Source: Myxococcales bacterium
GTDB lineage: Bacteria; Lernaellota; Lernaellaia; Lernaellales; Lernaellaceae
DNA: 33,090 bases
NCBI GenBank assembly: GCA_012517325.1
Contig: JAAYVF010000086.1
Coordinates: 1-33,090 of the forward strand
Direction: 5' to 3'
Below the pieces are notes generated by a model that was not told the DNA's origin, ran no database searches, and saw only the letters and a list, made by a program, of their open reading frames with translations. Positions 2,594 to 5,327 of the stretch are shown here, piece by piece. The position numbers and the translations under genes were made by a program. The stretch's first letter is position 1, and each line of letters starts with the position of its first letter.

Positions 2594-3334
2594 TTACCCG
2601 ATCAACAAGCCTTCCAGGCGAATCCGCGTCCCTTCGGGCGTGTTTTGAATGAAGTTGATCAGGCCGCTGTGCCGCCATTGCAGCATGCACATCCGCGGCT
2701 GGAAAAAGTAACGCTGGCCGATGCGCAGTTCGGCGTTGGTGCGCGTGACGATGCCCTCGTAGGCCTCGGCGGAGTAATAGCCGATGTCCTTGAAGCCCTC
2801 CAGCCGCGGGCGCAGCGGGCCGGTGACGCACCAGACGATGACGCCGGTACGCTGGTCCACGTCGATGACCACGCCGCAGTGGGTGATCGGGCAGCCGCAG
2901 GACATGCCGAGCGGGCGGCCGATCATCACGTCGCCGACCTGCATGTTCAGTTCGCGGGTCAGCATCGGGTTGTGCGGCAGGCAGACCTCACGCGGGCCGG
3001 GATCCTCGGGCAGGTGTTCGAGGAAGAAATCGAAATCACGGCCGAGGCTGTCTTTCCACTCCGTCGGTTCCTGTTCCCAGGCGAAAGTCGGCAGCGGCGC
3101 GGGCGCGCAGGCGCCACAGACCGTCTGCGCTTCCTTCGCGCGTTTTACCGCGGCGGCCTGTTTCTGCGCGTCGATTTCGGCCTTGTCGCGTTCCTGCTGC
3201 TTGAGCAGCATCACGCAGCGTTTGAGCAAATCCGGCTGACCGGGCAATTTGTCCGCCAGCGCCTGACACGTCCGGTAACCGCACAGGCCGCAATCGAGAC
3301 CCGGCAGTTCGATGCCTTTCATTTCCGTCACCAT
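2594..3334 (-). CDS. Cys-rich Fe-S protein of an Rrf2-led operon
   Basis: This 246-residue cytoplasmic protein starts with a 4Fe-4S domain of the PF04060 type: C15-x2-C18-x4-C23-x16-C40, in LDCGLCGYRTC. That domain also occurs in the corrinoid Fe-S protein of acetyl-CoA synthase and in RnfB. A charged helix (about 45-70) follows, then CGAC (73-76), and a C-terminal domain of about 150 residues with C118, the cluster CGCPITHC (146-153), C169 and C216. These could hold further metal sites. I chose ATG 3334 because GAGGAGAG lies just upstream; earlier in-frame residues overlap the GTPase gene. It is the last gene of the Rrf2, ABC ATPase, GTPase operon. The function is not known to me; an Fe-S scaffold or redox partner is a guess. 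Confidence 0.8.
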   Translation of the reverse strand: MVTEMKGIELPGLDCGLCGYRTCQALADKLPGQPDLLKRCVMLLKQQERDKAEIDAQKQAAAVKRAKEAQTVCGACAPAPLPTFAWEQEPTEWKDSLGRDFDFFLEHLPEDPGPREVCLPHNPMLTRELNMQVGDVMIGRPLGMSCGCPITHCGVVIDVDQRTGVIVWCVTGPLRPRLEGFKDIGYYSAEAYEGIVTRTNAELRIGQRYFFQPRMCMLQWRHSGLINFIQNTPEGTRIRLEGLLIG

Positions 3335-3347
3335 GGTCGTCTCTCCT

Positions 3348-4049
3348 CTATTCCCCGCGGTACAGCAGTTGACCGTCGAGCGGCCGGACAACACCGAAGT
3401 GCTTTTCCCAGCCGATTTCCTTCTTGCCGACGCAGATCGTGCAGGTGCCGACCGGCGGGTTGCCGCGCAACGCCAGCGACTCCGGCGCTTCCGGGGTCTG
3501 CCGGACCATCTCGACCAGCGGATCGATGCCGATGCCGTACAAGGCGTTGACCTCGCGCACCTTCACCTCGGGCGCCGCCAACTGGATGCGGGCGCGGAAC
3601 ACCTCGCGCTCGGCCTGCGACACCAGGTCGATCTTGGTGACCACGGCGATGTCGGCGAGCGACAGGATGGGGCCGACCTTGAGGGGCAGGTTCATGCCGC
3701 TGGTCGCCTCGAGGACCGCGATGCCCAGGCCGCCGTCGGCGTAAGGCGCGCAACGCAGGCACAGGCCCGCCGTCTCGACCAGCAGGATCGTCGCCAGGTT
3801 CCGCTCCGCCCAGCGCAACGCGTCGCCCAGCACCATGACGCTGCAGTGATCCGGGCACAATTCGCCGGAGTACGTCTTGCGCGTCGGAATGTCGAATTCC
3901 TTCGCGAACAGTTCGTCCTCGTCGGCATACTGCACGTCGATTTTCAAAAACGCCGGGCGCTCGCCCATCCCGATCAGTTTCTTCGTGACGTGCCGCAGCA
4001 CCGCCGTCTTGCCGGTCGTCGCCGGCCCCGCGCAAATGACCAGTTTCAT
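3348..4049 (-). CDS. HypB/UreG-like GTPase with Cys metal motifs
   Basis: This 233-residue P-loop protein has GPATTGKT (8-15), an ETAG switch (92-95) and TKID (138-141) for guanine recognition. The fold and motif order match the SIMIBI GTPases HypB and UreG, which drive nickel delivery to hydrogenase and urease. It carries CPDHC (65-69), CLRC (97-100) and CTIC (203-206), giving several soft-metal or Fe-S ligands. There are no hydrogenase or urease genes in the window. The start overlaps the stop of the upstream ABC ATPase gene (ATGA at 4046-4049), and the Fe-S gene follows after 13 bases. The GTPase class is well supported; the metal and client protein are unknown. Confidence 0.85.
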   Translation of the reverse strand: MKLVICAGPATTGKTAVLRHVTKKLIGMGERPAFLKIDVQYADEDELFAKEFDIPTRKTYSGELCPDHCSVMVLGDALRWAERNLATILLVETAGLCLRCAPYADGGLGIAVLEATSGMNLPLKVGPILSLADIAVVTKIDLVSQAEREVFRARIQLAAPEVKVREVNALYGIGIDPLVEMVRQTPEAPESLALRGNPPVGTCTICVGKKEIGWEKHFGVVRPLDGQLLYRGE

Positions 4050-4828
4050 GCCAAACCTCCGACATCTTGCAGTTGCAATTGATTACCCAGGCGGATTTTC
4101 TCGCGCAGGGCCGTGTACATGTCGTCCCACCGGCTGACGGTGACGGCGCACTTCTTCTCTTCCTCGTTGGTTACCAGCAGCTTCGTGATGCAGCCGTTCT
4201 CCAGCACGATCCGGTAATCCGAAAGCAGCGCGATGCGCGGATCGTGGGTGACGAAAATGAAGATCTTGCGGTGCTGCCGCAGCAGTTCCAGCGCCCGCGT
4301 CCGGTTGATGCCCGCGTTTTCGACCTCGTCCAACAGCACGATCGGCGTGTTGCAGACGATCGTCGCGTCGGCGATCAGCATCGCGCGGGTCTGGCCGCCG
4401 GAAAGCTCGGTCATCGTGTTGGTCTCGATGATCGGCTCGCCGGTAAGCTGGTTGGCGAAGTCGATCGTCTGCTGCACCAACTCGCTCACCTTGGCGTTGC
4501 TGTCGCAACGGATGCCGGCGTGGATTTTCAAAAACTCGATCACCGACAGGTCGGAAAGAAAATTGGTGTGCTGGGTGATCAGGGCAATCGGATTGCTTGA
4601 CGGGTTGTAACGATAGGCCGCCGGTGGCCGTTTCCCGTCGATCAGCAGGCGCCGCCCGGTGGGCGTGTTGCCGTCGGCGAACAGCTCGATGTCGTTGATC
4701 AGCGTGGTTTTGCCCGAGCCGGTCGGCCCGACGATGCTGACCACGTCGCCCATGTTCATGTCGATGCGTTGGACCGGCTCCGGCGCGCCGTTTTTGCCGT
4801 GTCCGCCAATCAAAGTGATGGTCTCCAC
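4046..4828 (-). CDS. Soluble ABC-type ATPase without permease
   Basis: This 260-residue protein is an ABC nucleotide-binding domain: Walker A GPTGSGKTT (34-42), Q-loop Gln near 86, signature LSGGQ (142-146), Walker B VLLDE (164-168) and the switch His in FVTHD near 195. No transmembrane gene is nearby, so it probably acts as a soluble ATPase, like SufC or the methyl-coenzyme M reductase activator A2, rather than as a transporter. Walker B continues as DEVENAG rather than the usual DEPTSGLD, and the C-terminal 50 residues are a non-canonical extension. The gene lies 50 bases after the Rrf2 gene, with TAAGGAGGG ahead of its ATG, and overlaps the GTPase gene by four bases. Confidence 0.85.
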   Translation of the reverse strand: METITLIGGHGKNGAPEPVQRIDMNMGDVVSIVGPTGSGKTTLINDIELFADGNTPTGRRLLIDGKRPPAAYRYNPSSNPIALITQHTNFLSDLSVIEFLKIHAGIRCDSNAKVSELVQQTIDFANQLTGEPIIETNTMTELSGGQTRAMLIADATIVCNTPIVLLDEVENAGINRTRALELLRQHRKIFIFVTHDPRIALLSDYRIVLENGCITKLLVTNEEEKKCAVTVSRWDDMYTALREKIRLGNQLQLQDVGGLA

Positions 4829-4878
4829 AATACCCTCCTTAACCGATCGGATAAGTCATATTTAAGCGGAAAAAAAAG

Positions 4879-5283
4879 TTACACCACTTCCGCCAGGGTG
4901 GTTTCTTCCAACTTCTTCGCGGTGTAGTCGCGAATATCGCGAAAAACCGCGGTCAGGCGTTCTTCCTTTTCGATGGGGGTGGACTCGTAAAAATAGGTGC
5001 TGACCGATTCGGTCGGCGCCAGGGCGCCGTCGAAGAGGCGAATGATCTCGGCGATGGAGATTTCGCCGGCGTCGCGGGCGAGGCGAAAGCCGCCGTGTTG
5101 GCCCTTGGTGCTCATCACGATCCGGGCCCGTTTTAGCGCCAGCATGATCTGCTCGAGGAAACTCTGCGGGATGCCCTGCTCCTTCGCGATCCGCTCGGCG
5201 CTGATGTAACCCTCGTCGCCGTCGTGACGCGCCAGGTAAATCAAGGCCAGCAAGGCGTATTCGCTACGAGAAGTCAGCCGCAT
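4879..5283 (-). CDS. Rrf2-family transcriptional regulator, Cys-free
   Basis: This 134-residue protein shows the Rrf2 winged-helix pattern: MRLTSRSEYALLALIYLA, the recognition helix QGIPQSFLEQIMLAL (about 36-50) and the wing STKGQHGGFRLAR (about 58-70). IscR, NsrR and RsrR bind Fe-S clusters through Cys residues in the following loop; here that loop (about 88-106) has none, and the protein has no Cys at all. It may sense through another ligand or act without a cofactor. It heads the ABC ATPase, GTPase and Fe-S operon and probably regulates it and itself. A near-palindrome overlapping a candidate -10 lies 25-45 bases upstream. Confidence 0.9.
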   Translation of the reverse strand: MRLTSRSEYALLALIYLARHDGDEGYISAERIAKEQGIPQSFLEQIMLALKRARIVMSTKGQHGGFRLARDAGEISIAEIIRLFDGALAPTESVSTYFYESTPIEKEERLTAVFRDIRDYTAKKLEETTLAEVV

Positions 5284-5307: not shown

Positions 5308-5327
5308 ACTAGTCCGACCAGATTAGT
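5308..5327 (-). promoter_or_regulatory. Candidate Rrf2 operator
   Basis: ACTAGTC (5308-5314) and GATTAGT (5321-5327) are inverted arms with one mismatch and a six-base spacer. The site is just upstream of the Rrf2 gene and overlaps its candidate -10 element, a position suited to autorepression. GACTA-type half-sites are known for IscR-like Rrf2 proteins. Binding by this regulator is inferred. Confidence 0.4.

Follow-up and report, generated by a model that had tools for sequence, protein, structure and literature searches.

An ABC ATPase-GTPase-COG2000 Fe-S protein module, widespread but sparse in bacteria and archaea, with links to sulfur and Fe-S chemistry

Which chemistry brings together a soluble ABC ATPase, a GTPase and an Fe-S protein next to an Rrf2-family regulator? 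The question is raised by four genes on the minus strand of a 33,090-nucleotide stretch of DNA from a Myxococcales bacterium (contig JAAYVF010000086.1, positions 1 to 33,090; hereafter the window). They encode the regulator (4879..5283; 134 aa, PF02082 113 bits), the soluble ABC ATPase (4046..4828; 260 aa, PF00005 58 bits), a G3E-type GTPase of HypB/UreG fold (3348..4049; 233 aa, PF02492 cobW/HypB/UreG 33 bits) and a COG2000-type Fe-S protein (2594..3334; 246 aa from ATG, PF04060 31 bits). A preliminary description of this DNA had seen in them a tightly spaced operon, and coordinates and Pfam matches bear this out. The ATPase and GTPase genes overlap by ATGA, and 13 bases separate the GTPase gene from the Fe-S gene, for which a start at 3334 is likelier than the upstream GTG (3394). 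No permease was noticed there, and none for the ATPase is found in the 33-kb window as annotated. The operon had been taken for a dedicated maturation system, possibly for nickel. We find a dedicated, co-inherited soluble NTPase/Fe-S module with sulfur and Fe-S neighbours; the nickel part of the proposal is not supported. Our reading, to which we give a probability of about 0.58, is that the module is nucleotide-driven and serves a dedicated client, by handling sulfur or by assembling or repairing an Fe-S (or metal-sulfur) centre.

In 54 bacterial and archaeal loci, the GTPase and COG2000 genes lie together on the same strand. The ATPase gene adjoins the GTPase gene in 51 of them; the other three end at contig edges. 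They come from a GTPase scan of public genome contigs, which gave 31 loci (54-88% identity), and from additional searches of whole genomes. Genes flanking the module were called with a simple codon model, and the calls were checked by six-frame profile searches. The conserved order is ABC-GTPase-[NifS]-COG2000. Because the 54 loci that share this order span phyla and domains, the association is far beyond chance, and the co-occurrence of the three genes that a dedicated system implies is confirmed. The proteins of the window score 421 (GTPase), 436 (ATPase) and 337 bits (COG2000) with the shared module profiles, and their genes are ordered as in the archaeal locus L047.

The module is widespread but sparse. 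The 31 loci come from isolates and metagenome-assembled genomes, which make up many of the genomes, and bear organism names as deposited with the records: Deltaproteobacteria, Hydrogenedentota, Acidobacteriota, Opitutales, Planctomycetaceae, Anaerolineaceae, Omnitrophota, Delongbacteria, Burkholderiales, Gallionellaceae, Nitrospinota, Elusimicrobia, Methanophagales and Methanomicrobiaceae, together with Rhodoblastus sphagnicola and Thioalkalivibrio denitrificans, two culturable bacterial hosts. The GTPase was detected at E<=1e-25 in 10 of 386 diverse genomes and at E<=1e-60 in 12 of 247 genomes of an Acidobacteriota sample, 8 of 68 Hydrogenedentota and 52 of 197 genomes of the methanogen phylum, counts that mix the COG2000 type with sister systems (SBP-type, see below). 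In the class of the Burkholderiales locus L037, the same threshold returned 1 of 274 genomes, L037 itself, and no further case.

A first clue comes from methanogens. An ATPase, a "Ni2+ binding GTPase" and a COG2000 Fe-S protein have been described beside coenzyme M (CoM) biosynthesis genes, with role unknown (Chadwick et al. 2025, PMC12068725). Our full-text literature search found COG2000 in no other relevant paper. Most archaeal loci are ordered ABC-GTPase-COG2000-MMP16-cysteate synthase-ComDE, and the same triad is found in most coenzyme M operons examined here among methane-making archaea. In L047, NCBIfam profiles identify MMP16 (510 bits), cysteate synthase (559 bits) and ComD/E. A published mutant in MMP16 is a CoM auxotroph when sulfide is left out of the medium. 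Among 197 genomes of one archaeal phylum, MMP16 scores above its cut-off in 44 of 48 with the module vs 46 of 149 others (Fisher p=5e-14, a value inflated by shared ancestry). By coordinates, GTPase and MMP16 genes lie within ~5 kb of each other in 33 of the 44 genomes having both. The methanogen triad consists of the same three families in the same order as in the window, with GTPases ~55-66% and COG2000 proteins ~31-39% identical in the archaeal loci aligned. In contrast, the bacterial form, window included, has no nearby MMP16, ComDE or cysteate synthase (0 of 34 loci); it carries rrf2 and often nifS instead. The triad beside CoM genes was already known; to this we add the bacterial form without coenzyme M synthase, in NifS and Rrf2 contexts.

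These bacterial contexts indicate a role broader than coenzyme M and point to sulfur or Fe-S chemistry. A NifS/IscS-type cysteine desulfurase gene stands between the GTPase and Fe-S genes in 8 of 34 bacterial loci and in archaeal L135. The eight bacterial loci include that of the sister genome, L018; its GTPase and that of the window are 88% identical. On the GTPase tree (77 rows), the NifS label requires at least 5 changes on well-supported branches. Therefore, desulfurase genes were gained or lost repeatedly and the association is recurrent. In two archaeal loci with a bacterial-type module (L134:138-5241 and L135:4388-13928), SufC and a SmsB/SufB homologue adjoin the module; in L135 these are followed by an IscU-type gene and another NifS. 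In one of these two genomes, MMP16 lies ~1 Mb from the module. The ANME-1 locus L035 is near NifS, NifU, SufC and a sulfide-dependent ADP-thiazole synthase. By eye, the module of Elusimicrobia L045:6397-10958 is convergent with apparent sulfate-activation genes cysN, cysD and cysC.

Could the module stand in for a housekeeping Fe-S system? In genome-scale tests, which covered few families, 41 genomes were searched for NifU_N, 40 with the module plus one relative, and 37 gave a match; 12 of 40 lack SUF. Replacement was rejected, and because housekeeping systems are also present the module is additional to them. We also looked for the client enzyme that a dedicated maturation system supposes. 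Coenzyme M synthase co-occurs in methanogens and NifS in a bacterial subset; beyond NifS and Rrf2, no conserved neighbouring bacterial client was found in the 31 loci. P-type ATPase, MnmC and TrpB-like neighbours are confined to one Burkholderiales group. COG1900/HcyBio was rejected as a general client, since only 4 of the 32 module genomes have it and three of these are archaeal; 28 of the 32 genomes searched have no PF01837, and the window genome lacks it. A nickel-enzyme client was also rejected. There is no conserved link to one, 11 of 40 module genomes have no match to PF00374 ([NiFe]-hydrogenase family), and the weaker PF00374 matches in other genomes look like complex I subunits.

The GTPase belongs to the G3E superfamily, with PF02492 above cut-off, a HypB/UreG fold match and P-loop, ExxG and [N/T]KxD residues. 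Its AlphaFold2 (AF2) model has a predicted local distance difference test (pLDDT) score of 82.5. Search for structural similarities using Foldseek gave UreG (4hi0, 9e-12) and HypB (2wsm, 3e-11; also 2hf8) as best matches. The CPDHC, CLRC and CTIC motifs singled out earlier are all found. C65-P-D-H68, C97, C100, C203 and C206 do not vary in any of the 77 sequences, sister type included, and the CPDH segment aligns with the CPH region of UreG. Like HypB and UreG, the protein thus has the G3E fold, ExxG and TKxD motifs and a switch-region Cys/His site. Unlike them, it has extra invariant CxxC pairs (97/100 and 203/206) and no hydrogenase or urease link, and it falls far below the equivalog cut-offs for HypB (TIGR00073: 37.6 vs 121.2 bits) and UreG (TIGR00101: 21.5 vs 204.2 bits). 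The "HypB/UreG-like" assignment therefore holds for the fold and fails for both families.

The COG2000 protein has an N-terminal [4Fe-4S] domain (C15, C18, C23, C40) with a profile match to CFeSP and RnfB. The 12 cysteines that had been counted are present, but only six (15, 18, 23, 40, 148, 216) are conserved. All 47 sequences have C40, C148, H152, C216 and H222, the last four of which lie in the C-terminal domain. In the AF2 model (pLDDT 88.2), this domain is mostly at ~90 or more. A fold search against the PDB returned nothing at E<=0.001, leaving the C-terminal fold unmatched.

The ATPase carries complete motifs (Walker A GPTGSGKT, signature LSGGQ, Walker B LLLDE, H-loop THD) and an unusual D-loop, ENAGI. 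A SufC-like kinship had been suggested. This could not be upheld: SufC (TIGR01978, cut-off 212.8 bits) is not among the 25 best of its 176 NCBIfam matches (the lowest of these 25 scores 37.6 bits), and the operon has no SufB/D gene. The module does resemble SUF/SMS in having a soluble ABC ATPase without permease and, in some loci, a cysteine desulfurase, and is sometimes adjacent to such genes (L134, L135). It differs in that the operon has no SufB/D-type scaffold and the ATPase is not SufC-like; the GTPase and COG2000 occupy the place of the scaffold.

The family of the regulator had been tied to Fe-S homeostasis. The protein matches the Rrf2 family (TIGR00738, 120 bits). The IscR cut-off is missed (66.9 vs 207.6 bits), as is that of CymR (70.1 vs 195), and IscR-type Cys ligands are absent. 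The window protein has no cysteine at all. In 11 bacterial loci an orthologue is encoded upstream of the module; nearly all of these proteins are Cys-free in the IscR ligand region, where LAPxESVSxYFYxxTPxExE takes the position of the cluster ligands. Being Cys-free, the window protein cannot hold a cluster by cysteines in the manner of IscR.

A related GTPase-ATPase pair occurs with other partners. In 20 loci from Fusobacterium vincentii, other lineages and some archaeal genomes, the pair stands with an SBP_bac_6 protein, usually with DUF1858 (SBP-type sister loci, L049:8823-11807, L062-L070, L146, L148-L155 and L161). The Fusobacterium GTPase shows 35% identity, with the same eight invariant Cys, His, Pro and Asp residues, and the ATPase 42%. 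The N-termini of these SBP proteins are not signal-peptide-like, so the proteins are probably cytoplasmic. In three further loci (L071:1434-6191, L162:3494-10000, L163:7756-12417), the pair lies beside FecCD-type metal/siderophore importers, with a DUF364/DUF4213 "heavy-metal chelation" protein in two of the three. In both cases another third partner replaces COG2000. A fair reading is that the pair would be a general engine with exchangeable client-binding partners. A small conserved Cys-rich zinc-ribbon-like protein is encoded near some SBP-type loci (L153:11466-11708, L154:7952-8194, L155:7702-7884). The Fusobacterium vincentii record L049 (NZ_CP084075.1) is filed as a plasmid, although its size, 2.1 Mb, suggests a chromosome.

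Taken together, sulfur or Fe-S chemistry, rather than nickel insertion, is the best supported role. It is favoured because the recurring partners, desulfurase, coenzyme M synthase and SufC-SmsB, share a sulfur/Fe-S theme. A working scheme can be drawn. NifS, whose gene is in the operon in some bacteria and which would act in trans in the window genome, would release sulfur from cysteine; in methanogens the source would be sulfide. COG2000 would be the working platform. Its N-terminal [4Fe-4S] cluster may supply electrons, and its invariant Cys2/His2 site may hold sulfur, a persulfide or the nascent centre. The HypB-like GTPase would load or check the metal or cluster through its CPDH, CxxC and CxxC motifs, and the ABC ATPase would drive an opening and release step, much like SufC acting on SufB. 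The client in methanogens would most likely be coenzyme M synthase (MMP16/ComF), which swaps an aldehyde for a thiol; in bacteria, it would be another enzyme.

Several observations weigh against this role. No desulfurase gene is adjacent in 26 of 34 bacterial loci, window included. The Rrf2 protein has no cluster ligands. The occurrence of the sister pair with a cytoplasmic SBP protein or with FecCD/DUF364 may indicate that what is handled is a metal ion or small ligand, not sulfur. Finally, E. coli with only the M. jannaschii MMP16 is reported to make CoM from sulfoacetaldehyde (PMC12068725). MMP16 alone suffices there, so the module is not strictly required for CoM in E. coli.

Two alternatives are live. 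The GTPase, with help from the ATPase and Fe-S protein, could insert Ni (or Fe, Zn, Co) into a metalloenzyme. The HypB/UreG fold, the CPDH segment aligned with UreG, the related pair beside FecCD importers and DUF364 proteins and the published name of the GTPase (PMC12068725) would all fit, but the equivalog scores, the genomes without a PF00374 match and the lack of a linked nickel enzyme do not, and the genes that are linked are sulfur genes. For nickel itself, the fold was the sole basis. We regard metal insertion as doubtful. The module could otherwise be a reductive activator, comparable to the nitrogenase Fe protein or corrinoid activators, passing low-potential electrons from the COG2000 [4Fe-4S] cluster to a client. 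The match of its N-terminal domain to the electron-transfer domains of CFeSP and RnfB is consistent with this, as is the need of 2 or 4 electrons for sulfur insertion by ComF (PMC12068725). MMP16, however, already has a ferredoxin domain (PMC12068725). Electron donation also leaves the in-operon desulfurase and the HypB-type Cys/His sites of the GTPase unexplained, and we consider it unlikely. ABC ATPases of this kind are not known to act as electron gates. That the ATPase is a transporter remnant that powers the import of a metal or a sulfur compound via a permease encoded elsewhere is highly improbable: it scores like importer ATPases (ThiQ, 54.6 bits), and the sister system uses an SBP_bac_6 protein with some loci flanking FecCD importers, but all scores are far under transporter cut-offs, the D-loop is ENAGI, COG2000-type loci have no conserved permease gene and the N-termini of the sister SBP proteins do not resemble signal peptides.

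If the sulfur/Fe-S role is correct, it would add a nucleotide-driven sulfur/Fe-S machine of new fold. A more far-reaching version, which we put forward tentatively and hold to be possible rather than probable, is that the module constitutes separate Fe-S/persulfide assembly machinery beside NIF, ISC, SUF and SMS/MIS. COG2000 would then be a new-fold scaffold driven by the ATPase and the GTPase, spread over bacteria and archaea and recruited for CoM synthesis in methanogens.

The remaining genes of the window are all housekeeping, and no client enzyme was found among them. They encode SmpB-like, DegT aminotransferase, GDSL lipase, Asd-like, PS decarboxylase, TsaB-like, M50 protease, Dxr, CdsA-type, UppS, Frr and amino-acid kinase proteins. 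The window has no Rfam family and no tRNA. A defence role of the operon was rejected, as PADLOC matches were ABC-domain cross-matches only. A likely rrf2 promoter, TTGACG-N17-TACTAA, is found on the minus strand. An inverted-repeat scan located ACTAGTCCGACCAGATTAGT at 5308..5327 (strand unassigned), overlapping the likely -10 element, and this repeat is a candidate operator of the Rrf2 protein. By eye, TACT...GGxxTAGT-like strings partly similar to it occur upstream of rrf2 in L022 and L033, which suggests that rrf2 may be autoregulated.

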